Shown here: positions 1 through 58,804 of the stretch, one piece after another
How positions within the stretch are numbered: position 1 is the stretch's first letter
Layout: each line of letters starts with the position of its first letter
Origin: Tomocerus qinae
Lineage: Eukaryota > Arthropoda > Collembola > Entomobryomorpha > Tomoceridae
Direction of reading: 5' to 3'
Assembly: GCA_020055645.1 (NCBI GenBank)
Contig: CM034547.1
Location: 71,582,884-71,646,883, forward strand
DNA length: 64,000 bases
The notes under the pieces: generated by a model
Seen by the model: the letters and a program-made list of their open reading frames with translations, nothing else
Database searches by the model: none
Told to the model about the DNA's origin: nothing
Translations under genes and position numbers: made by a program

Positions 1-583
1 GGATTGTTAGCGGGATAGTACATAATATTAAGTGCCGCTTCGACCAAATTTAAGATTTTATATTAAAGTAAATAAAACTGGAAAATATCTATTATAGGAC
101 GAAAATAAATCTATTTCGCATTTATATGCAAATAGATAGTTAAATTTATATTTTTCGAATTGCTTTCCATTATGATAGCCAACATTAATCAATTTTGATT
201 TTCTGTTGATTTTCATACTCAACATTAATAAAATTTGATTTTCTGTTGCTTTTCATAGTCATTATGATTAAATTTTGATTTTCTGTTGCTTTTCATAGTC
301 AACATTAATAAATTTTGATTTTCTGTTGCTTTTCATAGTCAACATTAATCTATTTTGATTTTCTGTTGAATTTTAATAGTCAATAATAATCTATTTTGAT
401 TTTCTGTTGATTTTAATAGTCAATATTAATCTATTTTGATTTTCTGTTGATTTTAATAGTCAATATTAATCTATTAATCAATACTAATCAAAATAAATGT
501 ATTTCTATTATTGTTCTAACAAAAAATGTGTACACGGTCCCCTTTGATCAGGCGAGCTTCTGTTACGGCTTACCGTAGGTTTT
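1..583 (-). mobile_element. HLE-A, Helentron-like non-autonomous element, cut by window edge
   Basis: Read on the minus strand, the 5' end lies at about 583 (cctacggtaagccgtaacag, then the gctcgcctgat word). It is followed by the GGGGACCGTGTACAC block, a 40-bp-period array (about 175-480) and the conserved AT-rich core up to base 1 (ggattgttagcgggatagta). The core matches HLE-C around 5690-5850 nearly base for base. The 3' microsatellite and hairpin would lie left of the window. No coding capacity. Confidence 0.8.
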
Positions 584-1369
584 CTAACTAAATTGAGCGG
601 AAAATGGGAATATCTAAAATTATGATTTACATAAAAGTGTTATAAATCTTCAAGACTTTTCAAAGTGTTATAAAATTCGATCGTAAATTCCAAAATCAAA
701 TTTCCAAATATTTTGCCATGTCAATGGATCCTATCTGGGGTATTGGTGCGGGCAGTGTCTTTAGCCCTATTATTTTAGGTGTGGAAAAAGAGGTCGGTCG
801 GGTGAACGCTCTGTGCATCTCATTCCAGAAGATAGTAAAATATTGTTTTAGATTTTATCGACTCTCGTAAATTTCCGGCGACATGGCGATGGCTCTACAC
901 AATTCACTTTTTTATACTAGGAGTATAAAAATTTATAGGTTGGAGCACTTTGTCCTATAAGATTAGGGGAAGGGGAGTGAGTGTGCTAAATGCAGAGAAG
1001 CGTCTCAGATGTTAAACTTCGGGATAAATATGCAATCAAGAAATCACACGACAGAGTGATCTCACATCAAACTCAAATTCGATCGAAGCATTTACTTTTG
1101 GACAGACAGGTAGTTCTTTATATTCCAAAGTCTAAGCAATAACCTACAGCAGATATTTCTCGGGGAAAAAATTGTGAAATTGAAATCTTTCTATCTAACC
1201 TAACCTAGATTTGAAACTTACCATACCTAAAATAAATAAGATCATTATTTTCATTCATTTCCAATTCCAACCGAAGATATAAGAATATGCAATAATATTT
1301 GCGTCAAGAATGCAAGTTATTACGGTTGCGTCGAAAAGGGGGACAAGTCGATTATGATATTAAATAGTA
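584..1369. other. No gene seen
   Basis: AT-rich sequence with no long open frame and no recognised repeat end. Mild GC enrichment around 720-830 (gtgcgggcag, ggtcggtcggg) is not backed by coding signal. Confidence 0.5.
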
Positions 1370-1892
1370 TAGTTTAAAAAAAATAGTAAAAAATAGTTTA
1401 ATTTAAATTTCGTGTTTAAATTTTTAATAAAATTCGGCGCCAAAGTATGAAATAGATTAGCAGCTGAAGATTGTTGTCACAAATTAAATAAGTGTCCGTC
1501 AATCAGAGTTGGATTCAACCAATGGGGGCACTAATCGTCCTTATTTGCCGATAGAGAAATTAATTGCATTTACATTGGCACATTAATATCAATTGTATGT
1601 AAATTGGCAATACCAAATACATTAATCTCTTTTTTATAACTTTCGGCGAACCTATGAAATAAATAGGATTAATTTGATTAATTAAGGGGTTAATTGGAAA
1701 TATTTCATAGACAATATAAAGTTTTAAAACTTATATTTTATTAAGTCTGTATTAAACTGACTAATTAATCGCTAAAATTTACCATTTTTACCATTAAATG
1801 CATTTTTACCATTAAGTGCATTTTTACCATTAAGTGCATTTTTACCACTGTGATGGTAAAAAAGCCTAAAAAGTGGTAAATTTTGTACACTG
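1370..1892 (-). mobile_element. hAT-like MITE, 'taccac' family, truncated copy
   Basis: The right end reads AAATTTTGTACACTG, the reverse complement of the left end of the more complete copy at 22894-23454. The body carries tandem taccattaagtgcattttt words and the segment ataactttcggcgaacctatgaaataaataggatt, which recurs at 16200, 18660 and 23080. The other terminus is missing here. No ORF. Family assignment rests on the CAGTGTAC end and the imperfect 8-bp duplication of the 22.9-kb copy. Confidence 0.6.
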
Positions 1893-2320
1893 TTCGTGGA
1901 GTCCCTCCTTAATTATATTTATCCTAGTACACAAAGTTACAATTACACTTTCTTAGAATCACGTTGGGATTTTAACGACAATGGGTGGTCGATTTCATTT
2001 CTGCGGGTTTAGGATTTGGCGTTAGCATAGGGTAACATATGTTAGTGTAGAGATTGTCGGTCGGGTGGTGGAGGTGGGGCAGATGCAATTTCACGCTGGC
2101 GGAACAACATTCCTCAGGGACATTCACGCTCTGCCACTTACCCACCTGTCAAGGGGCAGACAGAGACACCTTCATTTGCATTAAACATACCGCCACACTC
2201 GCACCAGGCATCACAAAGTTTAAGTAACAAACTCACCTAAATCAAATAACCAACATGTCTGAATGCATACAGGCATAAACAATTACAATCTGGCACTCTC
2301 GACTCGACCGACGGGGGAGA
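1893..2320. other. No gene seen
   Basis: Low-copy looking sequence with a G-rich patch around 2040-2090. I see no domain, splice structure or repeat terminus. Confidence 0.4.
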
Positions 2321-2324
2321 AACA

Positions 2325-3031: not shown

Positions 3032-3456
3032 AAACCTACGCCAGGCCGTAACAGAAACTCGCCTGAGTGAATAGGACCGTGTACACATGTTTGATAGAAT
3101 AATAGAAATAATTTTATTTTTTTTTGATATTTATAGGTTAATATTAAGTATCAAAATCAAAATAGATGATTGTTGACCATACAAATCAACAGAAAATAAA
3201 AATTTTGACTATCAAAATCAACAGAAACCCAAATTTGGTAAATGTTAAGTATCACAATAAACAAAAATTCAAAATTGATTAATAATGAGGATCAAAATCA
3301 AAATAAATTCAAAATTGACTAATATTAAATATCAAAATAAACAGAAAATCAAAATCATAATGAAATGTAATTCGAAAAATGTAAATTTGACTGTCAATTT
3401 GGATATAAGTTCGAAATAGATTTATTTCCGTCTTACAATAGATATTTTCCGGTTTA

Positions 3457-3796
3457 ATAGCCCCTTTTTTTATTCCCGATCCTATCCCAACTCCTATGTA
3501 CTACATGAGTGATTTTGGTGGGAACCGCGTCTCGGCTGTAGTCTATCCGAGACGGTAGTAGAAGGGTACAAGTGGTTTCCCATCAAGATGTAGTTCAAAC
3601 AAACCCTGATTGACCGTACTTGTAAGAAAGCTGCTGTGGGTTTGTTTGGTTAGGTTTGAACTACATCTTGATGGGAGACCACTTGTACCCTTCTACTACC
3701 GTTTCGGATAGATTACAGCCGAGACGCGGTTCCCACCAAAATCACTCATGTAGTACATAGGAGTTGGGATAGGATCGGGAATAAAAAAGGGGCTAT
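3457..3796. mobile_element. PIF/Harbinger-type foldback MITE, 340 bp
   Basis: It is almost a perfect palindrome. Arms of about 144 bp start ATAGCCCC and end GGGGCTAT, with a roughly 50-bp loop around 3605-3655. TTA flanks both sides (3454-3456 and 3797-3799). A 3-bp TWA duplication is the signature of PIF/Harbinger. Removing element plus one TTA restores the HLE core read in other copies (ccggttttactttatta type). No ORF. The high arm identity suggests recent activity. Confidence 0.8.
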
Positions 3797-4041
3797 TTAC
3801 TACATTATACAATCTTAAATTTTGGTAGAAGAGAAGTGAAATATTTTATACTATCTCGCTAACAATTTATAGGAAACACAATTGAACTTTTAATGTCCAT
3901 TTAATGCGAGGAGAAGCAATTGAGACAACAAAGTATAAACATGTTGACCTAGTTAGCTCCTGCACAAATACCTTACTGTACATACCACAACTTAGTAGTT
4001 AGACCTGTGTAGCTAGAATTTATCAGATATAACACAACACA

Positions 4042-4537: not shown

Positions 4538-6135
4538 AAACCTACGGCAAGCCGTAACAGAAGCTCGCCTGAGTGAAGGGGACCGTGTACACAGTTATTA
4601 TATTAATAATAGAAACAGGTTTATTTTCATATTTATTGGTTAATATTGAGTATCAAAGTCAAAATGTATGAATGTTGACCATCAAAGTGAAGGGGACCGT
4701 GTACACAGTTATTCTATTAATAATAGAAACAGGTTTATTTTCATATTTATTGGTTAATATTGAGTATCAAAGTCAAAATGTATGAATGTTGACCATCAAA
4801 GTCAATAGAAAATCAAAGCAGATTAACGTTGACTATGAAAATCAACAGAAACTCAAAATAGATTAATCCTGACAATGAAAATCAACAGAAAATCAAAATT
4901 GATAATTGTTGACTATGAAAATCTATAGCAAATCAAAATAGATTAAGATTGACTATGAAAATCAACAGAAACTCAAAATTGATTAAGATTGACAATGAAA
5001 ATCAACAGAAAATCAAAATCGATGATTGTTGACTATGAAAATCAGCAGAAAATCAAAATAGATAATTGTTGACTATTAAAATCAACGGAAAATCAAAATA
5101 GATAATTGTTGACTATGAAAATCAACAGAAAATCAAAGTAAATTAATTGTTGACTATGAAAATCAACAGAAACACAAAATAGATTAAGATTGACAATGAA
5201 AATCAACACAAAATCATAATTGATAATTATTGACTATGAAAATCAACAGAAAATCAAAATAGATAATTGTTGACTATGAAAATGAACAGAAAATCAAAAT
5301 AGATAATTGTTGACTATGAAAATCAACAGAAAATCAAAATTTAATCATGTTGACTATGAAAAGCAACAGAAAGTCAAATTTTATTAATGTTGAGTATGAA
5401 AATCAACAGAAACACAAAATAGATTAAGATTGACAATGAAAATCAACACAAAATCATAATTGATAATTATTGACTATGAAAATCAACAGAAAATCAAAAT
5501 AGATAATTGTTGACTATGAAAATCAACAGAAAATCAAAATAGATAATTGTTGACTATGAAAATCAACAGAAAATCAAAATTTAATCATGTTGACTATGAA
5601 AAGCAACAGAAAATCAAATTTTATTAATGTTGAGTATGAAAATCAACAGAAAATCAAAATTGATTAATGTTGGCTATCATAATGGAAAGCAATTCGAAAA
5701 ATATAAATTTAACTATCTATTTGCATATAAATGCGAAATAGATTTATTTTCGTCCTATAATAGATATTTTCCAGTTTTATTTACTTTATTATAAAATCTT
5801 AAATTTGGTCGAAGCGGCACTTAATATTATGTACTATCCCGCTAACAATCCATAGGAAGCACATTTGAACTTTTAATGTCCATTTAATGTCACATTTTCA
5901 TTTTGAGTATCAAAATGAAGACAAAGTGAGCGCGCGTCATTTCAGCAACCTGTTAACCAATGTGGCCCATTTTCAATAGGCTTTGTCACAGATCCATAGG
6001 CAATGTTTTTGCCAAGTTTAGTTGAAATCCATCAATGTCTTCAAAAGTTATCGTGTAAACGGACGGACGCACGCACGGACGGACGCACGCACGGACGGAC
6101 TGTGCGATTCTATAAGCTGCCTTTTCAGGCGAGCT
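4538..6135 (+). mobile_element. HLE-C, long Helentron-like element inside LINE ORF1
   Basis: 5' end aaacctacggcaagccgtaac; 3' hairpin ending caggcgagct. It carries a roughly 114-bp head duplication: the block from agtgaaggggaccgtg to gaccatcaaagt at about 4573 recurs at about 4687. The 40-bp array (4800-5670) contains a higher-order 240-bp duplication, since bases from 5153 repeat 240 bp later with few changes. The microsatellite is (ggacggacgcac)n at 6060-6100. The LINE ORF continues directly on the far side, so the insertion is clean. Confidence 0.9.
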
Positions 6136-9665: not shown

Positions 9666-10216
9666 TATAAAATTACATAAATTGTATTTTTATAGGCAAA
9701 ATTACTAACCAACACACGTAGCAACATTAAAAGAACCATGTAATGACAAATAGATGTACATATAACAAATAAACCTAAGACCTGTAAGAATGTAAAAATA
9801 TATACTACTATAATAAGAATAACACTAGCCCATTAGCTATACTAAATGTCCTATTATTATTATAACATTAATTAATTTACTCAAATAACTTTGTAACGCA
9901 TTCTAAAAAAAATTGTAAAACACACTTCCCTGGCTCCATGGGCAAAAAGCCCGAGAGGAGCGACACCCCCCTTAAATAAAAATGAAAAAAAAATAAATGT
10001 CCATTTAATGCCAATTTTTCATCAAAATGAAGACAAAGTGAGCGCGCGGTATCTCAGCAACCTATGCACCAATGTAGCCTATTTTCAATAGGCTTTGTTA
10101 CAGATCTATAGGCAATGTTTTTGGCAAGTTTGATCAAAATCCGTCTATGTGTTCGAAAGTTATCGTGTTCACAGACGGACTGTGCGATTCTATAAGCTGC
10201 CTTGTTCACGCGAGCT

Positions 10217-11090: not shown

Positions 11091-12594
11091 CCCTAGAATG
11101 CCCGCATTGGTCCATCCATGGATTCTAGGTCTTCGTTCTATCCTAGCTTCGACATGATATGCCTTACAACCTCAAGGATTTTTGTATTTGTCAAAAAATG
11201 CGTTTCTTTCTTTGTGTAGAGAATTTCTTTAAAATCAGTTGATATTTAAGGCAAAATAAGAAACCTACAGCAAGCCGCAACAGAAGCTTGCCGGAGTAAA
11301 GGGGACCAGGTTAATTTAATCGAAAGTGAAATGCAATCAAAATATTTTAAATGAATATAAAGGGAATATTTTAAATAAGTATAACAGCCGCATGGCGTAA
11401 ATTTGAAAAACTTGAAAAAAGAGTCTAGAAAGTCTAGAAATAAGATAAATGAATCATTTAAATTGTGTTTCTAATAAAAATAAGTTGAAATGGGATATGG
11501 CCTGTGTGTTATGGCAATTATGGAATGTGGGGCCCAAAAATGTATGGAGGAGTGCCGACAATCGACGATGCGGGAAAAAGTGGATGTCAAGGTGGTAGGG
11601 AGCGCACGACCTCGCGGTGAAACGGGACGAGTCGATGGGTTGGAAACAATAAGTGGAGGTGGATGAAATACGAGACAAGTTATTACCTTCCAGGCAATTG
11701 AACTACTCGGTTAGATGAGACCAGGATGTACCCGGGTCTTTCTCCTGCCCTGCCTGCCACTCAATCCCTCTTTATATATAACACTAAACTACTCTTATAT
11801 CTAGCTATCTGTATCACTCTCTCATTATACGCATACAGAGGGTCCTCTCACATAGCTGGACCACTTGTTTAAGAGGGCATAGCTGGGCCACCCGAAAACA
11901 GTTGAGTGACTTATTTAAGGAGAGTGGCTGTGCAAACATTTAATAATTTATTGATGAAAAATGATATGTGATTAGGCAGATATGTGTCATCCACGTATCC
12001 AGAAAATTTGACCAAGGGGGGCATGCGAGAACATGTTTTATGATATCACAACTTACGTTTGTACTTATGTCGCATTAAATCCATGTCTACATATACAAAT
12101 CAAAATCAAATAAAATTTGTTTAACTGCCAAAGGTTCATACAGGATGAATTAATTGTGTCAGCAACAATTAACACTTAAGGCAACCCAATTCATAGACTA
12201 AGTATTCATAGCAGAAAAAGCATTTACCAATCTGAAGGCAAATTTGAATGCCTATACTGCCAAACTATTGCGCCACGAATTGGCGCCTGTTCTCAAACTC
12301 CAATCCACCAGAGGTGGTCATAATTTAGTCATTGTCATTGGCTGTCAACTAGCCAATAGTAATGATTAAATTATGAGAGATGGCATCAAATATAACAAAG
12401 ACTCAGGGCATATTAAGCTGTTTCAGGCTTAATCTTAGTATATGAACCCAATTAACTCCCTCAAACAAAGCAGAGCCGTCCCATATCTGAATCGGTAGTT
12501 AATTATATACACATATCTGTGATTTTATAGTAAAGTACACTTCTAAACCTAGTCATCATAATTATCCTATGTAAATTAGCGGAGTACATATTTT
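11091..12594. other. Mostly featureless; HLE-T 5' fragment at 11263-11313
   Basis: At 11263 a degenerate plus-strand HLE 5' end (aaacctacagcaagccgcaac, agcttgccgga) runs about 50 bp and stops at ggggaccagg. A MITE left end sits at 11992. The inverted pair tggtcataatttagtcattg and caatagtaatgattaaattatga (12313-12376) makes a small hairpin. I see no gene. Confidence 0.5.
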
Positions 12595-12595
12595 A

Positions 12596-13633
12596 AAACC
12601 TACGGCAAGCCGCAACAGAAGCTCGCCTGATCAAAGGGGGCCGTGTACCCATTTTTTGGTGGAACAATAATAGAAATACATTTATTTTGATTAGTAAATT
12701 GGTATTCGAATTAGTTCAATATTAATCTATTTTGATTTAAATAGATTAACATTGACTATTAAAATCAACAGAAAATCAAAATAGATTAGTATTGACTATT
12801 AAAATCAACAGAAAATCAAAATAGATTAATATTGACTATTAAAATCAACAGAAAATCAAAATAGATTAATATTGACTATGAAATTCAACAGAAAATCAAA
12901 ATAGATTAATATTGACTATTAAAATCAATATAAAATCAAAATAGATTAATATTGACTATTAAAATCAATATATATTCAAAATAGATTAATATTGACTATT
13001 AAAATCAACAGAAAATCAACATAGATTAACATTGACTGTGAAAATCAACAGAAAATCAAAATAGATTGACATTGACTATTAAAATAAACAAAAAATCAAA
13101 ATTGACTAATATTGAGTATCAAAATAAACAAAAAATCAAAAGAATATAAAAATCGGTTAATATTGACTATCATAATGAATAGCAATTCGAAAAATATAAA
13201 TTTGACTATCAATTTGCATATAAATGCGAAATAGATTTATTTCCGTCATATAATAGGTATTTTCCGGTTTTTTTTACTTTGTTATAAAATTATAAAATTG
13301 GTCGAAGTGGCATTTAATATTTTGTACTATCCCGTTAACAATCCATAGGAAGCACATTTGAACTTTTAATGTCCATTTAATGCCACATTTTCATTTTGAC
13401 TATCAAAATGAAGACAAAGTAAGCGCGCGGCATCTCAGCAACCTATGGATCAATGTGGCCCATTTTCAAAAGGCTTTGTCACAGGTCCATAGGTTTTTGT
13501 TGGTGTTTATGCTTGTTGTTTTTGCCAAGTTTAGTTGAAATCCATCAATGTCTTCAAAAGTTATCGTGTACACGGACGGACGGACGGACGGACAGACTGT
13601 GCGATTCTATAAGCTCGCTTTCTCAGGCGAGCT
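12596..13633 (+). mobile_element. HLE-D, apparently complete Helentron-like element
   Basis: Uninterrupted copy of about 1.04 kb. It has 5' AAACCTACGGCAAGCCGCAAC, the gctcgcctgat word, and a 40-bp array at about 12735-13130 (unit attgactattaaaatcaaca plus gaaaatcaaaatagattaat). The AT-rich core with T8 (ccggttttttttactttg) follows, then tgacaaagtaagcgcgcggc, (ggac)n at 13572-13595, and hairpin agctcgctttctcaggcgagct. It serves as an intact reference for the family and as the empty site for HLE-P in HLE-O. Confidence 0.9.
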
Positions 13634-13734: not shown

Positions 13735-16193
13735 AGCTCGCCTGAATAAGGCAGCTTATAGAATCGCACAGTCTGTCCGTCTGTCCGTACCCACGATAAC
13801 TTTCGAACGCAATTACGGATGTTGACTAAACTAAGCAGAAACAATGTCTATGGGCCACTGACGATCCCTATTGATTTTGGGGCTAATCGGTCCATTGGTT
13901 GCCGAGATACCGCGCGCTCACTTTGTCTTCATTTTGATAGTTAAAGTGAAAAATGGGCATTGAAAATTGTAATACCGTTTCCTATAGATTGTTAGAGGAT
14001 AGTATAAGCTATATCATGCCGCTTCTACTAAAACTGAAATTATATAGTAAAATAACAAAAACGGAAAATTACCTTTAAAAGTAAAATAACGAATATGTTT
14101 CAAGTTTGTCTTGATTTTAACAGTCAATATTAATATATTATCATTATGTATTGACTGTGATAGTCAATATTAATATATTTTCATTATGTATTGACTTTGA
14201 TAGTCAATATTAATATATTTTCATTATGTATTGACTTTGATAGTCAATATTAATAAATTTTCATTATGTATTGACTTTGATAGTCAATATTAATATATTT
14301 TCGTTATGTATTGACTTTGATAGTCAATATTAATAAATTTTCATTATGTATTGACTTTGATAGTCAATATTAATATATTTTCATTATGTATTGACTTTGT
14401 TAGTCAATATTAATATATATGTATTGACTTTGTTAGTCAATATTAATATATTTTCATTATGTATTGACTTTGTTAGTCAATATTAATATATTTTCATTAT
14501 GTATTGACTTTGTTAGTCAATATTAATATATTTTCATTATGTATTGACTTTGATAGTCGATATTAATATATTTTGATTTTGTATTGATTTCGATAGTCAA
14601 TATTAATCAATTTTGATTTTCTATTGATTTTCATTGTCAACATTAATCAATTTGGATTTTCTGTTGATTTTCATATTCAAAATTAATCAATTTTGATTTT
14701 TTGCTAATTTTCATATTCAAAATTAATCAATTTTGATTTTCTGTTGATTTTCATAGTCAACATTAATCAATTTTGATTTTCTTTTAATTTTCATAGTCAA
14801 CATTAATCAATTTTGATTTTCTTTTAATTTTCATAGTCAACATTAATCAATTTTGATTTTCTGTTGATTTTCATAGTCAACATTAATCAACTTTGGTTAT
14901 CTGTTGATTTTCATAGTCAACATTAATCAATTTTGATTTTTTGTTGATTAGCTCGCCTGAGGAAGCGAGCTTATAGAACCGCACAGTCCGTCCGTCCGTC
15001 CGTCCGTTCGCCAACACTTTAACTTTTGAACGCAACGACGGAAGTTAACCAAACTTGGCAAAAACAATGCCTACGGACCAGTGACGAACCCTATTCATTT
15101 TGATTCAAATCGGTCTATAGGTTGCTGAGATGCCGCGCGCTCACTTTGTCTTCATTTTGATAGTGAAAATGAAAAATTGGCATTAAATGGACATTAAAAG
15201 TTTAATTGTGTTTCCTAAGAATTGTTAGATAATAGTATATAATATTTAACTCCGCTTCGACCAAATTTAAGATTTTATAATAAAGTAACTATAACAGGAA
15301 AATAACTATTATAGGACGGAAATAAATCTATTTCGCATTTTTATGAAATTGATAGTAAAATTTATATTTTTCGAGTTACTTTTCATTATGATAGTTAATA
15401 TCAACCAATTTGGATTTTCTTTTGATTTTTATACTCAATATTAATCAATTTTTATTTTCTGTTGATTTTGATACTCATTGTTAATCAATTTTGATTTTCT
15501 GATGATTTTGATACTCAACATTAATCAGTTTGGTATTTCTGTTTATTTTGATACTTAATATTAATCAATTTGGGATTTCTGTTTATTTTGATACTCAATG
15601 TTAATCAATTTGGGATTTTTGTTTATTTTGGTACTCAATATTGATCTATTTTTGATTTTCTGCTGATTTTGATATTCAATATTGATCTATTTTTGATTTT
15701 CTGTTGAATTTCAGTAGCCAATATTAATCAATTTTGATTTTCTGTTAATTGTAATGTTCAATAATTATTAATTTTGATTTTCAGTTGATTTTGATAATCA
15801 ATATAAATCAAAATCGATTTTAATATTCTATTGATTTTAATACTCAATATGAACCAATTATTTATTTTTATCGTGAAATATGAATTATATTAATCTAATT
15901 TGGATTAGAGTTCACTTTAATAATCAAAATCAATTTATTTCCTCTATTGATATACCAAAAATGTGCACACGTCCCCGTCCCCTTTACTCTTTAATATCTA
16001 TAAATCTTTAATATGTCATAGCTACATATATAAAGACTCAATTCTGAAAGTTTGATCAAAATCCGTACGCTCGGTTTTGTGCTACGTGCGAGTACTTTTC
16101 GTCTACCAAAATGTACACCTTTTATCACCTTTAATAATAATTTAATTTAACCTTTAATCAGGCGAGCTTCTGTTACGGCTTGCTGTAGGTTTT
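13735..16193 (-). mobile_element. HLE-E, subfamily II, split by HLE-F
   Basis: On the minus strand the 3' hairpin is at 13735 and the 5' end at about 16193 (gcgagcttctgttacggctt then gctgtaggttt). The array differs from HLE-D: its 40-bp unit is tagtcaatattaatatattt plus tcattatgtattgactttga. The 5' quarter (15990-16193) carries acatatataaagactcaatt and cggttttgtgctacgtgcg, exactly as in HLE-L at 29130-29220. HLE-L therefore shows what HLE-E looked like before insertion. Confidence 0.85.
14950..15989 (-). mobile_element. HLE-F, inserted in HLE-E, 5' tip missing
   Basis: 3' hairpin agctcgcctgaggaagcgagct at 14950, then (gtcc)n at 14986-15006, the core, and an array of mixed 40-bp units (about 15380-15850). 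It ends at gtcccctttactc without the terminal aggcgagcttctgttacgg block. Relative to HLE-L, about 30 bp of HLE-E is also missing at this junction, so one deletion removed the junction after insertion. Confidence 0.8.
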
Positions 16194-16435
16194 TATAACT
16201 TTCGGTATACAATAAAATAAATAGGATTAATTTGATTAATTAAGGGCTAAGTGGAAACAATTCATAGAAAATAAGGTTTTAAATCTTATATTTTAGGAAG
16301 TCTGATGTATCTGTACTAAGCTCAAATCAATCGCAAAAATTTACTATTGTTACCATTAAATGCATTTTACCATTAAGTGCATTTTTACCACTGTGAAGGT
16401 AAAAAAGCCTAAAAAGTGGTAAATTTTGTACACTG
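16194..16435 (-). mobile_element. hAT-like MITE fragment, 'taccac' family
   Basis: Ends with aaattttgtacactg at 16435 and carries the accattaagtgcatttttacc words, as at 1780-1892. The distal half is absent; it abuts HLE-E on the left and HLE-G on the right. Confidence 0.6.
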
Positions 16436-16563
16436 TGTTTAAACCTACAGCAAGCCGTAACAGAAGCTCGCCTGAGTAAAGGGGGCCGTGTGCAGGTTGT
16501 TGATAGGGGTTAGGTTAGGTTGGGTAATGCTAGTTAAAATAGATTTATTTTGAGTACTAAAAT

Positions 16564-17573
16564 AAACCTACGGCAAGCCGTAACAGAAGCTCGCCTGATC
16601 AAAGGGGACCGTGTACACATTTTTTGGTGGAACAATAATAAAAATACATTTATTTTGATTAGTAAATTGTTATTCAAATTAGTTCAATATTAATCTATTT
16701 TGATTTAAACAGATTAATATTGACTATTAAAATCAACAGAAAATCAAAATAGATTAATATTGACTATTAAAATCAACAGAAAATCAAAATAGATTAATGT
16801 TGACTATTAAAATCATCAGAAAATCAAAATAGGTTAATATTGACTATTAAAATCAACAAAAAATCAAAGTAGATTAATATTGACTATTAAAATCAACAGA
16901 AAATCAAAATAGATTAATATTGACTATTAAAATCAACAGAAAATCAAAATAGATTAATATTGACTATTAAAATCAACAGAAAATCAAAATAGATTGATAT
17001 TGACTATTAAAATAAACAAAAAATCAAAACTGTCTAATATTGAGTATCAAAATAGACAAAAAATCAATGTTGATTAATATTGAGTATCAAAATCAAAAGA
17101 AAATCAAAATCGGTTAATATATACTATCATAATGAAAAGCAATTCGAAAAATGTAAATTTGACTATCAATTTGCATATAAATGCGAAATAGATTTATTTC
17201 CGTCCTATAATAGGTACTTTCCGGTTTTATTTACTTTATTATTAAATCTTAAATTTGGTCGAAGCGGCATTTAATATTTTGTACTATCCCGCTAACAATC
17301 CGTTGGAAGCACAATTGAACTTCTTATGTCCCTTTAATGCCATATTTTCTTTTTGACTATCAAAATGAAGACAAAGTGAGCGCGCGGCATCTCAGCAACC
17401 TATGGATCAATGTGGTTCATTTTCAATAGGCTTTGTCACAGGTCCGTAGGCAATGTTTTTGCCAAGTTTAGTTGAAATCCATCAATGTCTTCAAAAGTTA
17501 TCGGATAAACGGACGCACGGACGGACGGACGGACGGACTGTGCGATTCTATAAGCTGCCTTTTCAGGCAAGCT
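16564..17573 (+). mobile_element. HLE-H, young copy nested in HLE-G
   Basis: 5' aaacctacggcaagccgtaac at 16564; array of about ten highly similar 40-bp units (16695-17110); core; (ggac)n at 17518-17538; end ttttcaggcaagct, where one G of the hairpin has changed. Very close to HLE-D and HLE-O. Confidence 0.9.
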
Positions 17574-18315
17574 AAAAATTAATTCAAATTAGATCAATAT
17601 TGATCATAATTGACTATCAAAATTAAAATTTTTTAAAAGAAGTTAGATTTCACTATCAAAATAAACAAAAATAAAATGCACATTAATATATTACCAACGA
17701 CAGTGAACAATAATGAAAAAACAATGAAAACAAACAAAAATTTAGAAGTAGTGTATTAACTATTGAAATCAACAGAAAACCAAAATAGATTAATGTTGAC
17801 TTTCGAAATAAATAAAAAATCAAAATATAATAATATTGACTATCATAACCAATGGAAAATCAAAATAGATTAATGTTGACTACCAAAATCAACAGACTAT
17901 CAAAATAGACTAATGTTGAATATCAAAAGCAATAGAAAATCAAAACTGATTAATAATTTGTATCAAAATCAACAGAAAATCCAAATTCATTTTTATTAAG
18001 TATCAAAGACAAAAGAAAATCTAAATCGGTTAATATTGACCATCAAAATAAAAAGGAATTTGAAAAATGTAAATTTTGCTATCAATTTGGATATAAATGG
18101 GAAATAGATTTATTTCCGTCCAATAATAGCTATTTTTCCGGTTTTATTTACTTTATTATAAAATCTAAACTTGGTCGAAACGGAGTTAAATATTTTATAC
18201 TATAAGGCTAACAATTTATAGGAAACGCAATAGAAATTTTTATGGCTCATTTTCTGCTTTGACTATCAAAATGAAAAGAAAGTGAGCGCGCGGTATCTCA
18301 GCAACCTTAACACTA

Positions 18316-18340
18316 CCTAACCTAACCTAACCTAACCTAA
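18316..18340. repeat. Interstitial (CCTAA)5 telomere-type run
   Basis: Five perfect CCTAA units (TTAGG on the other strand) inside HLE-G. Another four units stand at 36807-36826. TTAGG is the telomere motif of many arthropods, which is the clearest taxonomic hint in the window. Confidence 0.8.
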
Positions 18341-18489
18341 CCAAAATCAATAGGGTTAGCCAAACAATGCCCATAGGCATTGTTTATGCCTAATTTGGTC
18401 AACTTCGGTCAATGTGTTCGAAAGTTGTTCGGATGGACAAACGTACGGACAGGCTGTGTGGTTCTAAGCTCGCTTCCTCAGGCGAGCTC

Positions 18490-20408: not shown

Positions 20409-20630
20409 AACTCGCCTGAGGAAGCGAGCTTAGAGAACCGCACAGTCTGTCCGTCCGTACCCACGATAACTTTCGAACGCAATGACGGAAGTTGACCAAA
20501 CTTGGCATAAACAATGCCTATGAACCACTGACGATTCCTATTGATTTTGGCATAAATCGGTCGATAGGTTGCTGAGATACAGAGGGCATTGAAAATTGCA
20601 ATAGCGTTTCCTATAAATTCTAATAAATTT
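20409..20630 (-). mobile_element. HLE-I, 3' fragment
   Basis: Minus-strand 3' end: ctcgcctgaggaagcgagct hairpin, cagtctgtccgtccgt tract, acccacgataactttcgaac, and ggttgctgagatac. It breaks off after gcgtttcctataaattc. The array and 5' end are missing. Confidence 0.75.
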
Positions 20631-20639
20631 TCACCTACT

Positions 20640-20836
20640 GGATAGCAACAACGGGTGGTGCTTTGATCTAGGAATCGAATTAACTGCTACTACACAATAT
20701 GTGCGAAACTCCACATATTTCCCTGAGATATACCCGCATCTATATTATTATACTCCCACACCTCTCCGTATTATATAATTTACATTAAAAGTACACTTAA
20801 AAATAAGTAAAATGGCCAGCAAACCGCTGTCATATT
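20640..20836 (-). repeat. Dispersed repeat R3, copy 1
   Basis: The sequence gcgaaactccacatatttcc, ctgagatatacccgcatcta and ggccagcaaaccgctgtcat is the reverse complement of 40405-40490. It separates HLE-I from HLE-J. No ends or coding seen. Confidence 0.5.
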
Positions 20837-21695
20837 GACTAGTAACGAACCCTATTCATTTTGGTAAAAATCGGTCCATAGGTTGCTGAAATACCGTGAG
20901 CTTATTTTATCTTCATTTTGATAGTCAAAATGAAAAGGTGACATTAAATGGACATTAAAAAGTTCGATTGTGTTTCCTATAAATTGTTAGCTAGGTAGTA
21001 TAAAATATTTCACTCCTCTTCCACCAAAGATTTTATAAGAATGCCGAAAAATATCTATTAGAGGAAGAAATAGATCTATTTTGGATTTTTATTCAAATTT
21101 ATATTCAAATTTACAAATTCCTTTTTCCTTTTAATTTTGATAGCCCAATAGCAATCGATTTTGATTTTCTGTTGATTTTTATGTTGAACATTAATCTATT
21201 TTAAATTTCTGTTGCTTTTGATAATAAGCATTAATCTATTTTGATTTTCTGAGGATTTTGATACTCAACATTAATCTATTTTGATTTTCTGAGGATTTTG
21301 ATAGTCAACATTAATCTATTTTGGTTTTCTGAGGATTTTGATAGTCAACATTAATCTATTTGATTTTCTGAGGATTTTGATAGCCAATATTAATCTATAT
21401 TGATTTTCTGTTGATTTTCATAGTCGGCATTAATTTATATTGCTTTTCTGTTGATTTTCATAGTCGACATATTATTAATATTAATCTATTTTTCTTTTCT
21501 GTGTATTTTCATAATCAGCATTAATCTAATTTGGCATTTTGAACAATGATCATCTAATTTGAATTACTGTTCACTAATCAAAATAAAAATCTTTTAAGTA
21601 ATCAAAATATATCTACTTCTACCATTATTCTACCAAAAATGTTCACATGGTCCCCTTTACTCAAGCGAGCTTCTGTTACGGCTTGCTGAAGGTTT
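20837..21695 (-). mobile_element. HLE-J, lacking the 3' hairpin
   Basis: Minus-strand copy with intact 5' end at 21695 (ttctgttacggcttgctgaa, ggtccccttt). It has an array of units containing gattttctgaggattttgat, then the core, and stops at gtaacgaaccctattcattt. The microsatellite and hairpin are gone. Confidence 0.75.
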
Positions 21696-27028: not shown

Positions 27029-27578
27029 AAACCTACAGCAAGCCGTAACAGAAGCTCGCCTTAGTAAAAGGGACCGTGTGCACATTTTGGTTGTGATAAT
27101 AATAGAAATAAATTTATTTTGATTATTAAAGTAAGCACTAATTCAAACTGATTAATATAATTCATAATTCAATATAAAAACCAACAGCAAATCAAAGTTG
27201 AATATTGTTGACTATCAAAATCAACAGCAATTCAAAATAGATTGATGTTGACTATCAAAATAAACAGCAAATCAAATTCGATTTCAATCAAAATTGATTG
27301 ATATCGATTATCATAATCACCAGAAAATCAAAACTGATTAATGTTGACTATGAAAATCAACAGAAAATCAAAATTGATTAATGTTGGCTATTAAAATCAA
27401 CAGAAAATCAAAACTGATTAATGTTGACTAAGAAAATCAACAGAAAACCAAAATTGATTAATTTTGACTATGAAAATCAACAGATATTCAATCTTGATTG
27501 ATTATGAGTATTAAAATCTACAGAAAATTAAAATCGGTTAGTAAAGATTATCAAAATTTAGAGGAAATCAAAAAATGG

Positions 27579-29385
27579 AAAGGACGGTATCGAACTTTTC
27601 GTTTTTAGGGTATTCTGATAGCCCAGAAAAAATGGGACAAAAATAGTATAGGAAGTTATAGGTCAAAAATGAGGCCCTGGTTTTTAAAAAATGAAAAACC
27701 TAAAGAGGCGCCAATACTTCCTTTGTTATAATTTTTTGTATGGAAACCCTGATTTGGGGTATTTGGCCGGGGTTTTTATAGGGTACAATATAGACAGAAA
27801 GTGATCTTTAGTGTCTAAACCAACTTCTGAGAAAAAACTGTGTGCGGACTATTTAACACCGATTTTTAATTTCGATTTTTTGAATTTTTTTGAATTTTTA
27901 CATATTACGAAATACTGAAATCGAATTTAAAAATCGGTGTTAAATAGTCCGCACACAGTTTTTTCTCAGAAGTTGGTTTAGACACTAAAGTTCACTTTCC
28001 GTCTATATTGTACCCTATAAAAACCCCGGCCAAATACCCCAAATCAGGGTTTCCATACAAAAATTTATAACAAAGGAAGTATTGGCGCCTCTTTAGGTTT
28101 TTCATTTTTTAAAAACCAGGGCCTCATTAGCTCGCCTGAGTAAGCGAGCTTATAGAACCGTCCGTCCGTCCGTCCGTCCGTCCGTCGGTCCGTCCGTCCG
28201 TACCCACGATAACTTTCGAAAGCAATGACGGATATTGACCAAACTTGGCAAAAACAATGCCTATGGACCACTGACGATCCCTATTGATTTTGGGGTAAAT
28301 CGGTCCATAGGTTGCTGAGATACCGCGCGCTCACTTTGTCTTCATTTTGATAGTTAAAGTGAAAAATGGGCATTGAAAATTGTAATACCGTTTCCTATAG
28401 ATTGTTAGCGGGATAGTATAAACTATATCATGCCGCTTCTACTAAAACTAAAATTATATAGTAAAATAACAAAACCGGAAAATTACCTTTAAAAGTAAAA
28501 TAACGAATCTGTTTCAAGTTTGTCTTGATTTTAACAGTCAATATTAATATATTTTCATTATGTATTGACTTTGATTGTCAATATTAATATATTTTCATTA
28601 TGTATTGACTTTGATAGTCAATATTAATATATTTTCTTATGCATTGATCTTGATAGTCGTTATTAATATATTTTAATTTGTATTGATTTTGATAGTCAAT
28701 ATTAATCAATTTTGATTTTCTGTTGATTTTCATAGTCAACATTTATCAATTTTGATTTTCTGCTGATTTTCATATTCAAAATTAATCAATTTTGATTTTC
28801 TGTTAATTTTCATATTCAAAATTAATCAATATTGATTTTCTGTTAATTTTCATATTCACAATTAATCAATTTTGATTTTCTGTTAATTTTCATAGTCAAC
28901 AGTAATTAACTTTGATTTTCTGTTGATTTTCATAGTCAACATTAATCAATTTTGATTTTCTGTTGATTTTCATAGTCAACATTAATCAATTTTGATTTTC
29001 TGTTGATTTTTATGGTCAACATTAATCAATTTTGATTTTCTGTTGATTTTTATGGTCAACATTAATCAATTTTGATTTTTTGTTGATTTTTCAAATAATA
29101 TAGCTTCGTTTCCCTAAAATATCAATGTCTGAATTTTTAATATGTCATAGCTACATATATAAAGACCCAATTCTGAAAGTTTAATCAAAATCCGTACGCT
29201 CGGTTTTGTGCTACGTGCGAGTAATTTTTGTCTACCAGAATGTGTACACGTTAACCTTTAATCAGGCGAGCTTCTGTTACGGCTTGCTGTAGGTTTTTTG
29301 ACCTATAACTTCCTATACTATTTTTGTCCCATTTTTTCTGGGCTATCAGAATACCCTAAAAACGAAAAGTTCGATACCGTCCTTT
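27579..29385. mobile_element. Foldback M1, about 640 bp without HLE-L
   Basis: Ends AAAGGACGGTATCGAAC and GTTCGATACCGTCCTTT. Long, nearly identical arms (27579-27905 against 27910-28128 plus 29297-29385) include tttgccggggtttttatagg-like and ctgtgtgcggactatttaac words. HLE-L sits inside the right arm. No clear target duplication and no ORF. Arm identity is high, so it is young or kept alike by gene conversion. Confidence 0.75.
28129..29296 (-). mobile_element. HLE-L, complete subfamily II element
   Basis: Minus-strand, uninterrupted, about 1.17 kb: hairpin agctcgcctgagtaagcgagct at 28129, (gtcc)n at 28160-28200, gataactttcg, core, 40-bp arrays of two unit types (28530-29090), then the subfamily II head with cggttttgtgctacgtgcg. 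The 5' end is at 29296. It lies in a T-run of foldback M1; the opposite arm (27661-27680) shows the empty site. Confidence 0.9.
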
Positions 29386-29787
29386 GACTATAAAATTTAA
29401 TAAAAATCCAAAATAGATTTTTTTCAATCGTATAATAGTTATTTTCCGGTTTAATTTGCTTTATTATAATATCTCAAATTTGGTAGAAACGGATTGAAAT
29501 GTTTTATACTATACGCTAACAATTTATAGGAAACGCCATTGAACTTTTTAATGCCCATTTAATGCCAAATTTTCACATTGACTATCAAAATGAAGACAAA
29601 GTGAGCGCGCGTTATCTCAGCAACCAATGGATCGATTTACCCCCAATTCAATAGGGATCGTCAGTGGTCCATAGGCATTGTTTTTGCCAAGTTTGGTCAA
29701 TATCCGTCATTGCTTTCGAAAGTTATCGTGGCGACGGACGTACGGACAGACTTTGCGGTTCCATAAGCTCGCTTTCTCAGGCGAGCT

Positions 29788-37640: not shown

Positions 37641-37649
37641 CCATATATT

Positions 37650-39740: not shown

Positions 39741-39960
39741 TCATTTTTCTCTTTGACTATCAAATGAAGACAAAGTAAGCGCACAGTATCTCAGCAACCT
39801 ATGGACCGATTTATTCCTAAATTAATAGGGATCGTCAGTGGTCCATAGGCATTGTTTATGTCAAGTTTGGTCAACTTCCGTCATTGCGTTCGAACGTTAT
39901 CGTGGGTACGGACGAACGGACGGACAGACTGTGTGGTTTTATAAGCTCGTCAGGCGAGCT
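39741..39960 (+). mobile_element. HLE-N, 3' fragment
   Basis: Starts within the core (ctttgactatcaaatgaaga), then agcgcacagtatctcagcaa, ttatcgtgggtacggacgaa, cggacggacagactg, and ends ctcgtcaggcgagct. Upstream array and 5' end absent. Confidence 0.8.
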
Positions 39961-44477: not shown

Positions 44478-46806
44478 AAACCTACGGCAAGCCGTAACAG
44501 AAGCTCGCCTGATCAAAGGGGACCGTGTACACATTTTTTGGTGGAACAATAATAAAATACATTTATTTTGATGTTATTCAAATTAGTTCAATATTAATCT
44601 ATTTTGATTTAAACAGATTAATATAGACTATTAAAATCAACAGAAAATCAAAATAGATTAATATTGACTATTAAAATCAACAGAAAATCAAAACAGATTA
44701 ATATTGACTATTAAAATCAACAGAAAATCAAAACAGATTAATATTGACTATTAAAATCAACAGAAAATCAAAATAGATTAATATTGACTATTAAAATCAA
44801 CAGAAAATCAAAATAGATTAATATTGACTATTAAAATCAACAGAAAATCAAAATAGATTAATATTGACTATTAAAACCAACAGAAAATCAAAACAGATTA
44901 ATATTGACTATTAAAATCAACAGAAAATCAAAAAAGATTAATATTGACTATTAAAATCAACAGAAAATCAAAATAGATTAATATTGACTATTAAAATCAA
45001 CAGAAAATCAAAATAGATTAATATTGACTATTAAAATCAACAGAAAATCAAAATAGATTAATATTGACTATTAAAATCAGCATAAAATCAAAATAGATTA
45101 ATGTTGACTATTAAAATCAATATAAAATCAGAATAGATTAATATTGACTATTAAAATCAACAGAAAATGAACATAGATTAACATTGACTGTGAAAATCAA
45201 CAGAAAATCAAAATAGATTGATATTGATTATTAAAATAAACAAAAAATCAAAATTGACTAATATTGAGTATCAAAATAAACAAAGAATCAAAGTTGATTA
45301 ATATTGAGTATCAAAATCAAAAGGAAAACAAAATTGGTTGATATTGACTATCATAATGAAAAGTAATTCGAAAAATATAAATTTGACTATCAATTTGCAT
45401 ATAAATGCGAAATAGATTTATTTCCGTCATATAATAGGTATTTTCCGGTTTTAGCTCGCCTGAATAAGGCAGCTTATAGAACCGCACAGTCTGTCCGTAC
45501 GTCCGTCCGTCCGTCCGTACGTCCGTCCGTCCCCACGATAACTTTCGAAAGAAATGACGGATATTGACCAAACTTGGCAAAAACAATGCCTATGGACCAC
45601 TGACGATCCCTATTAAATTGGGGGTAAATCGGTTCGTTGGTTGCTGAGATAACGCGCGCTCACTTTGTCTTCATTTTGATAGTCAAAGTGAAAATTTGGC
45701 ATTAAATGGTCATTAAAAAGTTCAAAGGCGTTTCCTATAAATTGTTAGCGAGATAGTATAAAATATTTCACTCCGCTTCTACCAAATTTGAGATTTAATA
45801 ATAAAGGAAATAAAACCGAAATACTACTATTAGAGGACGGAAATAAATCTATTTTGGATTTATATTCAATTTTATAGTCAAATTTACAATTTCTAACATC
45901 TTTTCATTTTGATAGTCAATATTACAATACAATAGTGATTTGACTTGATTTTACACTCAAGATTAATCAATTTTAATTTTCTTTTGATTTGATAGTCAAT
46001 AATAATAAATTTTGATTTTCTTTTGATTATGATACTCAATATTAATAAATTTTGATTTTCTTCTGATTTTGATACTCAATATTAATTTGGACTATCTTTT
46101 GATTTTGATACTCAATATTAATTTGGACTATCTTTTGATTTTGATACTCAATATTAAATAATTTTGATACTCAATATTAACTAATTTTGATTTTCTTCTG
46201 ATTTTGATACTCAATATTAATTAATTTTGATTTTCTTTTGATTTTGATACTCAATATTAATTAATTTTGATTTCCTTTTGATTTTGATACTCAATATTAA
46301 TTAATTTTGATTTTTCTTTTGATTTTGATACTCAATATTAATTAATTTTGATTTTTCTTTTGATTTTGATACTCAATATTAATTAATTTTGATTTTTTGT
46401 TGATTTTGATAGACAACATTAATCAATTTTGATTTTCTGTTGATTTAATAGTTAATACACTACCACACTTTAAATTTTTGTTTGTTTAGATAACTTAAAT
46501 TTGCCTATTTTACACTTTTCATTTTAACAATCAAAATAGATCTATTTCTTCTATTTTCTACCAAAAATGTACACAGGGTCCCCTTTACTCAGGCGAGCTT
46601 CTGTTACGGCTTGCTGTAGGTTTTTTACTTTGTTATAACCTATGGACCAATGTGGCCCATTTTCAATAGGCTTTGTCACAGGTCCATAGGCAATGATTTT
46701 GCCAAGTTTAGTTGAAATCCATCAATGTCTTCAAAAGTTATCGTGTACACGGACGGACGGACGGACAGACTGTGCGATTCTATAAGCTCGCTTTCTCAGG
46801 CGAGCT
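44478..46806 (+). mobile_element. HLE-O, hosting HLE-P, with a very regular array
   Basis: 5' aaacctacggcaagccgtaac at 44478. The array at 44600-45220 holds about fifteen 40-bp units, many identical, the most homogeneous in the window. The core reaches ccggtttt at 45452, where HLE-P enters. After HLE-P it reads actttgttataa and jumps to cctatggaccaatgtggccc, so about 190 bp of core is deleted. It ends with (ggac)n and the hairpin at 46806. Confidence 0.85.
45453..46623 (-). mobile_element. HLE-P, complete, inserted in HLE-O
   Basis: Minus-strand: agctcgcctgaataaggcagct at 45453, (gtcc/gtac)n at 45495-45530, core, array of units with gattttgatactcaatatta (45930-46440), then the 5' end ttctgttacggcttgctgta at 46623. 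The array unit differs from that of its host. Confidence 0.9.
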
Positions 46807-48825: not shown

Positions 48826-48829
48826 TTTA

Positions 48830-51133: not shown

Positions 51134-51141
51134 CCTCTCAC

Positions 51142-53583: not shown

Positions 53584-54989
53584 ACACTTCCACATCCAAG
53601 TGTGGTACAATTGTACCACAACGCCTTTATTTGCCCTTATCTCCGTTCCCTTCAACCGAATTACATCCAGCTTTCAGGTACCTGTCAGGAATATTGTTTT
53701 ACAATTTTTAAAAATATTTTGAGGTAATTTTGAAATTTTTTTCAATTTTTTATGGTCGAAAAACTAAGACGAAGTCATCGCTAACAGGGCAGTATCCAAT
53801 GTGGTACATTTGTACCACAAAGAAGGTTTCTTATCTGGGGTGGTACAATTGTACCACACTTGGATACTGTCATGTAAGCGAGAATAAATGGTAAATATAT
53901 AGTAAATTAATATAATTAATTCAATGCTAGTAAGCAAATTAATTTTCCATAGTCGATTATAAGCCGACGATGTATAAATTAATTTTTATTCTTTTACTAC
54001 TGACCGACAAAATGGAAATTATATTGCTATCGTCGAATGTAAGACGACAGAATTCAAATTAATTTATACCATCGACTATAAGCCGGCGGAATGCACATTA
54101 AATTGTAATCACCGACTATAAGCCGACAGAATGCAAATTATTCTGTAAGCATCGAATATTAGCCGAAAGAAAGCAAATTAATCTGCTAGCATTGACTATA
54201 AGCCGACTGAATGTATATTAAATTGTAATCATCGACTATTAGCCGAAAAAATGCAAATCAATCTTTAAGCATCGACTATAAGCAGAAGGAATGTATATTA
54301 AATTGTAACCATCGACTATAAGCCGACACAATGCAAATTAAATTGTAATCACCGACTATAATCCGACGGAATGAATATTAAATTGCAATTATCGACTATA
54401 AGCCGCTGGAACGCATATTAAATTGTAATCACCGAATATAAGCCGCCGTAATGGAAATAATTCTCTAAACCTCGACCATTAGCCGAAATAATGCAAATTA
54501 ATCTGTTAGCTTCGACTATAAGCCGACGGAATGTATATTAAATTGTAATCATCGACTATAAGCCGCTGGAACGCATATTAAATTGTAATCACCGAATATA
54601 AGCCGCCGTAATGGAAATAATTCTCTAAACCTCGACCATTAGCCGAAATAATACAAATTAATCTGTTAGCTTCGACTATAAGCCGAAAGAATGCAAATTA
54701 ATCTGTTAGTAACGACTATAAGCCGACGGAATGCATATTAAAGACTATACGCTGAAAGTATGGTGTGGTACAATTGTACCACATTGAGTTTTGCTATGTG
54801 GTACAATTGTACCACACTTGGATATTGCCATGTTAGCAAGAGTAGGGCCTTAACCATTGGTTTGGCTACAAGGATAAAAACACGAAACCTTGTGTGGTAC
54901 AATTGTACCACACTTGGATACTGCTACGTGGTACAATTGTACCACACTTGGTAGTCCGCGGAAGTTTTTAGGCTTGGATGTGGAAGTGT
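53584..54989. mobile_element. Element M9: 40-bp array between palindrome clusters
   Basis: Short inverted ends ACACTTCCACATCCAAG...CTTGGATGTGGAAGTGT. Next to each end are copies of the 18-bp perfect palindrome GTGGTACAATTGTACCAC: about 53602, 53801 (one base changed) and 53839 on the left; 54763, 54799, 54894 and 54930 on the right. Between them (53945-54745) run about twenty 40-bp units with consensus cgactataagccgacggaat then gcatattaaattgtaatcat. No transposase. Inserted in an M3-family fragment. Confidence 0.75.
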
Positions 54990-56886: not shown

Positions 56887-57799
56887 AAACCTACAGCAAG
56901 CCGTAACAGAAGCTCGCCTGAGTGAAGGGGACCGTTTACACAGTTTTAGTAGAATAATTGCAATAGGTTTATTTTCATATTTATTGGTTAATATTGAGTA
57001 TCAAAATCAAAAATTTATAAATGTTGACCATCAAAGTCAACAGGGAATCAAAATAGATTAATATTGACTATGAAAATCAACAGAAAATCAAAGTATTAAT
57101 TTTGACCATCAAAAGCAATAGAAAATCAATATAGATTAATGTTGACTTCCAAAATCAGCAGAAAATCAAAATAGATAATTGTTGAATATTAAAATCAACA
57201 GAAACTCCAAATAGATTAAGATTGACAATGAAAATCAACAGAAGATCAAAAGTGATTGATGTTGACTATGAAAATCAGCAGAAAAACAAAATTGATTAAT
57301 GTTAACTATGAAAATCAACAGAAAATCAAGTGATTAATGTTGACTATGAAAAGCAACAGAAAATCAAAATAGGTAATTGTTGACTATGAAAATCAACAGC
57401 AAATCAAAATAGATAATTATTGACCATGAAAATCAACAGAAAATCAAGATTTGATTATTGTTGACTATGAAAGTCAGCAGAAAAACAGAAGTGATTAATG
57501 TTGACTATGAAAATCAGCAGAAAAACCAAATTGTTTAATGTTAACTATGAAAATCAACAGAAAATCAAGTGATTAACGTTGACTATGAAAAGCAACAGAA
57601 AATCAAAATTTATTTTTGTTGACTATGAAAATCAACAGAAAATCAAAATTGATTAATGTTGGCTATCATAATGAAATGAAATTCGAAAAATATAAATTTA
57701 ACTATCTATTTGCATATAAATGCGAAATAGATTCATTTCCGTCCTATAATAGGTATTTTTCAGTTTTATTTACTTTATTATAAAATCTTAAATTTGGTC
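56887..57799 (+). mobile_element. HLE-Q, 5' part
   Basis: 5' aaacctacagcaagccgtaac at 56887. Array with mixed 40-bp units and an internal roughly 185-bp duplication (the block with gattaatgttgactatgaaa, agcaacag at 57327 recurs at 57572). Core to aaatcttaaatttggtc at 57799, where it meets HLE-R head-on. Confidence 0.8.
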
Positions 57800-58413
57800 A
57801 ACAATTATCTATTTTGATTTTCTGTTGATTTTCACAGTCAATGTTAATCTATGTTCATTTTCTGTTGATTTTAATAGTCAATATTAATCTATTCTGATTT
57901 TATATTGATTTTAATAGCCAACATTAATCTATTTTTATTTTCTGTTGATTTTCATAGTCAACATTAATCTATTTTGATTTTCTATTGCTTTTGATGGTCA
58001 AAATTAATCTATTTTTATTTTCTGTTGATTTTCATAGTCAATGTTAATCTATGTTCATTTTCTGTTGATTTTAATAGTCAGTATTAATCTATTCTGATTT
58101 TATATTGATTTTAATAGTCAATATTAATCTATTTTGATTTTCTGTTGATTTTCATAGTCAATATTAATCTATTTTGATTTTATATTGATTTTAATAGTCA
58201 ATATTAATCTATTTTGATTTTCTGTTGATTTTCATAGTCAACGTTAATCTGTTTTGATTTTCTATTGACTTTGATGGTCAATATTCATGCATTTTGATAC
58301 TCAATATTAACCAATAAATATGAAAATAAACCTATTTCTATTATTTTACTAAAACTGTGTGTACACGGTCCCCTTCACTCAGGCGAGCTTCTGTTACGGC
58401 TTGCCGTAGGTTT
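57800..58413 (-). mobile_element. HLE-R, inverted 5' part
   Basis: Minus-strand array (tctgttgattttcatagtca, acattaatctattttgattt) followed by the 5' end ttctgttacggcttgccgta at 58413. A block of about 240 bp from tctatgttcattttctgttg (57848) recurs at 58028. The 3' half is missing. Q and R together form an inverted pair with 5' ends outward. Confidence 0.8.
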
Positions 58414-58804
58414 TACTATAAAATTGAATAAAAATCCCATCGTCTAATAGTTATTTTCCGGCTTAATTTGCTTTATTATAAAATTTCAAATTTGGTAGAA
58501 GCGGATTGAAATATTTTATACTATCCCGCTAACAATTTATAGGAAACGCCATTGAACTTTTTAATGTCCATTTAATGCCAAATTTTCACTTTGACTATCA
58601 AAATGAAGACAAAGTGAGCGCGCGGTATCTCAGCAACCAATAGACCGATTTACCCCCAATTCAATAGGGATCGTCAGTGGTCCATAGGCATTGTTTTTGC
58701 CAAGTTTGGTCAATATCCGTCATTGCTTTCGAAAGTTATCGTGGGGACGGACGGACGTACGGACAGACTGTGCGGTTCTATAAGCTCGCTTCCTCAGACG
58801 AGCT
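58414..58804 (+). mobile_element. HLE-S, 3' part
   Basis: actataaaattgaataaaaa, core, agtgagcgcgcggtatctca, cggacggacgtacggacag, and hairpin agctcgcttcctcagacgagct at 58804. Very similar to the right half of HLE-K (29386-29787). The array and 5' end are replaced by HLE-R. Confidence 0.85.

Follow-up and report, generated by a model that had tools for sequence, protein, structure and literature searches.

A HINE family of Tomocerus qinae that shares its ends with Helentrons of the same genome

The closest described relatives of the repeat family reported here, which lies in a 64,000-base stretch of the Tomocerus qinae genome (the window; G000:C2:71582884-71646883), are the HINE/DINE-1 elements. 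As set out in the accessible text of PMC4067079, these carry a 5' subterminal inverted repeat (subTIR) with a nearby inverted repeat, a microsatellite, central repeats, and a 3' subTIR followed by a palindrome; they insert into T-runs without duplication, and a longer Rep/helicase-coding partner has the same ends. Their subTIRs measure 12-15 bp, one close to the 5' terminus and the other set in from the 3' terminus, and elements whose subTIRs share 11 or more identical bases count as one family; S in place of L in Rep motif 2, with F/Y-x-R nearby, distinguishes Helentrons from Helitrons (same source). In the Pacific oyster, several Cg_HINE elements have a GTCY/GTCC-type microsatellite in the left flank, and no autonomous Helentron could be related to Cg_HINE in that study (PMC7492417).

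The repeats in the window form a HINE family that is new but otherwise ordinary, its coding partner being less usual in having a C-terminal, Ulp1/SENP-like C48 protease. With little room for doubt, the copies are HINEs, non-coding elements with Helentron ends and a central 40-bp array; Helentrons residing in the same genome probably mobilise them in trans. An earlier sequence-only reading of the window had placed them in the Helentron-like/HINE class, and this placement is borne out by the subTIRs, the (GTCC)n microsatellite, the central repeats, the 3' palindrome, insertion at T-runs and the Rep/helicase loci with the same termini found in the 334-Mb assembly (115 contigs).

Delimited in the window are 19 copies, together covering 16,073 of its 64,000 bases (25.1%), for which the earlier word 'dominates' is too strong. 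Both ends are present in 10 copies; of all 19, 14 retain the true 5' end and 15 the true 3' end. The earlier description of about 18 copies in a fixed order stands as to number; the full order holds for 10 copies, because the other nine lack an end, and several copies are nested. Strands below give the true polarity, which is the sense of the coding partners.

Copy 1, 1..579, + strand: cut by the window start; minisatellite and 3' end
Copy 2, 3035..3907, - strand: 3' end present, 5' end absent; a foldback insert at 3454-3790 interrupts it
Copy 3, 4541..6135, - strand: both ends; two further genomic copies of its host repeat are uninterrupted
Copy 4, 9997..10216, - strand: 5' fragment
Copy 5, 11264..11310, - strand: 3' end only
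Copy 6, 12599..13633, - strand: both ends
Copy 7, 13735..14945, + strand: lacks a 3' end; keeps the 5' end, the core and the minisatellite, whose array abuts copy 8
Copy 8, 14950..16189, + strand: both ends
Copy 9, 16444..18488, - strand: both ends, the 5' end without a T-run; interrupted by copy 10
Copy 10, 16567..17573, - strand: both ends; nested inside copy 9 (16444-18488)
Copy 11, 20409..21692, + strand: both ends; internal homology gap near 20580-20870
Copy 12, 27032..29787, - strand: both ends; interrupted by an insert at about 27575-29380
Copy 13, 28129..29293, + strand: both ends; nested in the transposon-like insert of copy 12 (by eye)
Copy 14, 39745..39960, - strand: 5' fragment
Copy 15, 44481..46806, - strand: both ends; interrupted by copy 16
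Copy 16, 45453..46620, + strand: both ends; lies within copy 15, in one of its T-runs
Copy 17, 56890..57799, - strand: 3' end, minisatellite and part of the core; 5' end missing
Copy 18, 57800..58410, + strand: minisatellite and 3' end; 5' end missing
Copy 19, 58415..58804, - strand: 5' end and core; 3' end missing

Because 61 core positions are found in both 56890-57799 and 58415-58804, these look like two different copies, and 56890-58804 was rejected as a single copy. Also dropped was a word at 60255 (one mismatch), with no HINE context in the surrounding bases inspected. Judged by eye, the transposon-like insert at 27575-29380 in copy 12 has inverted ends of ~100 bases (GGACGGTATCGAACTTTTCG..) and contains copy 13, and the stretches 16185-16440 and 18490-18700, which flank copies 9 and 10, are inverted repeats of each other.

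Read along the coding strand of the partner loci, the typical form (individual copies vary) begins after a T-run with the subTIR AGCTCGCCTGAG, followed by a short inverted repeat (GCGAGCT or GGCAGCT), (GTCC)n and CACGATAACTTT. Beyond these are the core, the 40-bp array, GTGTACACGGTCCCC, CTCAGGCGAGCT, TCTGTT, ACGGCTTGCCGT, AGG and the T-run that marks the true 3' end, such that the element starts with AGCTC and closes with GTAGG and a T-run. The subTIR directly follows the T-run at the 5' end and lies, inverted, ~21 bases from the 3' T-run, compared with distances of 2-4 and 38-60 bases in the mite (PMC4067079, accessible text). The subTIR, the 40-bp array and the core are the family's own, unlike those of the HINE/DINE-1 elements in that source.

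This order corrects the polarity of the element. What had been called the '3' hairpin' is the true 5' end and the 'AAACCTAC tip' is the true 3' end; the sequence-only polarity is rejected because the Rep/helicase frame and the module order run the other way, the frame being antisense to the direction given there. Flipped in this manner, the modules come in the sequence published for HINE/DINE-1 (PMC4067079, PMC7492417) and for the oyster Cg_HINE, which has a subTIR, a complementary inverted repeat, a GTCY/GTCC microsatellite, a satellite-like array and a subTIR with palindrome (PMC7492417, likewise). The 5' end folds as a hairpin (z-scores of -2.84 and -2.03 for two forms). Near the 3' end an ACGGC..GCCGT palindrome is present by sequence, and folding of one 37-nt 3' end favoured another hairpin, between the subTIR and the palindrome (z -1.87).

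The near-5' word was rightly said to reappear inverted at the opposite end. AGCTCGCCTGAG has 27 matches in the window at up to one mismatch, compared with a mean of 0.06 and a maximum of 1 in shuffled sequence. The core word has 12 matches at up to three mismatches and none in shuffles, and many tandem arrays of period 40 lie between the described words. An initial DNA search of the genome yielded 2,634 candidates, 40 of which were scored. Genome-wide there are 1,642 exact occurrences (829 + 813) of a 24-base 3'-end word and 1,189 matches (584 + 605) to a 28-position 5'-end pattern, with no match to either reversed-pattern control. For the first 100 listed of the 1,642 3' ends, a 5'-end word lies no more than 4 kb away in 50 cases, and 46 of these 50 show the expected order and orientation, at a spacing of 363-3,059 bases. 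Against viral contigs, the 24-base 3'-end word gave no match and the Helentron protein a single pattern match, with no relative.

Insertion is into T-runs. At least three T follow the 3' end in all 15 cases, and at least two precede the 5' end in 13 of 14 (copy 9 has none); TTT comes next at 5.0% of random positions. The repeat hosting copy 3 is uninterrupted in both of its other genomic copies; alignment of the filled site with these gives junctions at A/T-runs with no other bases duplicated, TG being missing (on the strand used in the sequence-only reading) and extra A being present. Copy 16, within copy 15, is flanked by 4 T and 6 T, and copy 6 represents the unfilled form with 8 uninterrupted T. 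At these two sites no target duplication of sequence beyond the T-runs was found, the exact joint being undefinable within T-runs, as is also stated in the accessible text of PMC4067079.

Coding partners were sought with the Helitron Rep profile PF14214, which matched the genome 96 times; one match scored below the cut-off, and some are pieces of one locus. None of the 96 falls within C2:71582884-71646883, so that, at the sensitivity of this profile, the window holds no RepHel protein, as had been claimed. Six Helentron-type loci, at lower-scoring PF14214 places, were read with wide flanks: one each on C1, C5, C7 and C8 and two on C2. In five of the six, the HINE 5' end and core lie 0.4-1.5 kb upstream of a Rep/PIF1-helicase frame, in its sense, and in three of those five a HINE 3' end also lies downstream. 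These three are the longer copies with the same ends that the sequence-only reading had proposed to look for:

C2_45M, C2:45175034-45185769, 10,736 bases: both HINE ends around a Rep/helicase frame
C1_89M, C1:89504872-89515793, 10,922 bases: both HINE ends around a Rep/helicase frame
C2_15M, about C2:15076788-15089048, about 12,261 bases: both HINE ends around a Rep/helicase frame

Eleven identical subTIR bases are common to the HINEs and the three both-ended Helentrons, which therefore belong to one family by the criterion of PMC4067079 (as worded in its accessible text). Over its first 314 bases, copy 10 shares 95.9% identity with the 5' end of the C5 locus, and its 3' end is 90.0% identical to C1_89M over 70 bases and 85.3% identical to C2_45M over 75; alignment matches to HINEs that merely stand beside Helentrons are not taken as evidence of descent. 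The Rep motif has the serine of Helentrons (RGSPH/GSPH) in all six loci, and the F-Y-R triplet in five, C8 having T-Y-R. The C8 locus (L050), despite its Helentron-type Rep motif, has neither HINE end, and no C48 domain was detected in the two frames scanned there. Beyond the main frame or its pieces and overlaps, no frame of at least 100 aa was found in two of the both-ended loci and none of at least 150 aa in the third, no RPA profile having been run; the mite Helentron has an RPA-like second frame (PMC4067079, accessible text). Further tandem repeats, with self-match offsets near 177 and 182 bases, occur in the 3' parts of C1_89M (L041/L044), C2_15M (L048/L049) and C2_45M (L040). The tie between an abundant HINE family and Helentrons of the same genome through shared termini is one that, by the accessible parts of PMC7492417, could not be made for the oyster elements.

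The domain composition was determined for three of the partner proteins. Helitron_like_N and a PIF1-type helicase (E values of 5.4e-26 to 2.9e-28) are present in all three, DUF6570 in two and Peptidase_C48 in two, the third frame stopping inside the C48 region. In an alignment of C-terminal regions, the Ulp1/SENP-like Peptidase_C48 domain is matched by Pfam in four of five rows, the fifth being cut short. It is similar to SENP2 (1tgz; phmmer E value of 3.4e-6, 8.8e-10 with a profile). Residues H, D, Q and C, which we take to form the C48 site, are present in all four rows that cover it, the fifth again being cut short. The words GDFN, QIDICFSN and SHHKP, each found in 5/5 C-terminal rows, and HNIQSLN, found in 3/5 (two rows stop short of it), are candidate endonuclease motifs.

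Helentrons with OTU and VTD proteases have been reported, and these resemble the present ones in combining a Rep/helicase with a cysteine protease acting on ubiquitin-like modifiers and with a C-terminal apurinic/apyrimidinic (AP)-type endonuclease, the last being putative in the present loci (PMC4067079; PMC9741609, accessible parts). Unlike theirs, the protease here is a Peptidase_C48 (Ulp1/SENP-like) domain, fused at the C terminus in the loci read. An acquired Ulp1-type protease domain is also found in Mutator/MULE and Ginger1 elements, with which the Ulp1 passages in the accessible text of PMC2836005 and PMC13317346 are concerned; those are cut-and-paste DDE elements, whereas the present ones are rolling-circle elements. 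No Helentron with a C48 domain was found in the accessible text of the open-access literature searched, Repbase and subscription papers being outside that search. Judged from domain matches, the partner may represent a Helentron lineage with a fused C-terminal Ulp1/SENP-type (C48) protease, in which case Helentrons would have recruited a ubiquitin/SUMO-type protease independently three times, counting OTU and VTD; we regard this as a serious possibility, somewhat short of probable. The kept H, D, Q and C hint that selection may have favoured de-SUMOylation or deubiquitination in the course of transposition. If C48 proves general in a Helentron lineage, the processing of SUMO/ubiquitin-like proteins would be a recurrent need of rolling-circle transposition.

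Several observations weigh against the reading of the copies as HINEs mobilised by these Helentrons. The wide-flank reading covers six loci out of those behind the 96 PF14214 matches, and among these six there is no clean, complete autonomous copy. Frames are split in C2_45M, C1_89M, C2_15M and C5, and the 13.7 kb read at C5 contain no 3' end. The C7 locus (L039) has an open frame of 2,181 aa and lacks a 3' end; its last codons, LTIKMKTK, are a piece of the HINE core with a second 5' end behind them; the locus is thus a chimera and was rejected as a clean autonomous copy. Identity between HINEs and Helentrons is partial (roughly 72-96% over parts) and therefore does not single out any one Helentron as the parent. 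HINEs also adjoin Helentrons, so the 5' end upstream of the C7 and C5 frames could be that of a truncated neighbouring HINE. Among the 50 paired 3' ends, a 5'-end word occurs in mirror order, also or instead, at 9, and on the same strand at an inner position at 3 and an outer position at 2; at the other 50 of the 100 listed, no exact 5'-end word lies within 4 kb, a result that truncation, divergence or longer elements could produce. As to the endonuclease, Exo_endo_phos_2 is matched in one of three whole proteins (E value of 8.2e-4, below the cut-off) and in three of five C-terminal rows (best E value of 3.7e-5), leaving this domain weakly supported; the region has no match in the PDB, and a predicted model of the C terminus was unusable (mean predicted local distance difference test score of 37.2) and was not used.

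The observed basis of the HINE assignment comprises the ends, their order, the T-run flanks, the uninterrupted sites and the Helentron loci that bear the same ends on both sides of the frame. The mechanism, with its enzymatic steps, is inferred from the known family. The Helentron Rep (HUH) protein would nick at the T-run by the 5' subTIR, and a PIF1-type helicase would peel one strand away. The 3' palindrome would then terminate the copy, and the copied strand would be joined into another T-run without target duplication, the target T-run possibly being opened by the AP-type endonuclease domain.

Alternatively, the copies could be cut-and-paste miniature inverted-repeat transposable elements (MITEs), with the inverted AGCTCGCCTGAG serving a DDE transposase as terminal inverted repeat. 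The two ends do hold an 11-12 base word in opposite orientations, and the window is free of RepHel matches; but this word is terminal at one end only, lying ~21 bases in at the other and followed there by a separate palindrome, the two sites examined show no target duplication beyond T-runs, and the long both-ended loci code for Rep/helicase, all of which makes a MITE origin extremely improbable. The two findings named in the sequence-only reading as contrary to its class, an unrelated transposase in the same termini and a target duplication of non-A/T sequence, are absent from the six loci and the two sites. That canonical Helitrons of the same genome, rather than Helentrons, mobilise the copies is very unlikely, although such Helitrons are numerous: PF14214 loci scoring ~190-220 bits carry the L residue (GLPH in 27 of 27 readable loci out of 30 high-scoring ones, the other three being unmatched by the motif search), and several have frames above 1,000 aa. 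No HINE termini or core were found at these 30 loci within about 1.5 kb of flank, a weak point given such short flanks; by eye, the HINE ends lack the 5'-TC and CTRR-3' form of Helitrons (PMC4067079, accessible text), and the Helentron loci do have the HINE ends.

Spread mainly by satellite-style tandem amplification, not transposition, is likewise very improbable. Arrays of HINE plus spacer do exist at two loci, with units of ~2,050 bases (L055 1-7001) and 1,882 bases (L056 1-6001) that are 99.3-99.8% identical; the window copies, however, are dispersed in both orientations with different flanks and are nested at T-run junctions, and uninterrupted sites exist. Tandem amplification remains as a local, secondary process on top of the transposition of HINEs.

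Other repeats share the window. At 7468-9190 are adjacent open frames of 136 and 430 aa with a transposon-like look, the second matching DUF7869 (PF25273, E value of 8.6e-11). The segment 23740-24940 comprises 131-bp tandem repeats and then, twice, GAGTTATCGTGCTAACAGACAG..(ACAG)n..TCAGGCATYCCTATAAAG, which by eye resembles the 5' module of the window HINEs; it is possibly a second, diverged HINE family. A period-40 array with a 160-bp higher order at 53805-54950, flanked by repeated TGTGGTACAATTGTACCACA palindromes, has no visible relation to the HINE array. At 49665-51098, an inverted pair of 16-bp arrays surrounds two inverted 120-bp arrays, forming a foldback-like element. An 18-bp array, CATTTTTACCATTAAGTG, recurs at 1783-1847, at 16346-16390 and at about 1930-1970 of a further genomic stretch (L052), the latter two sites being close to HINE-type ends.

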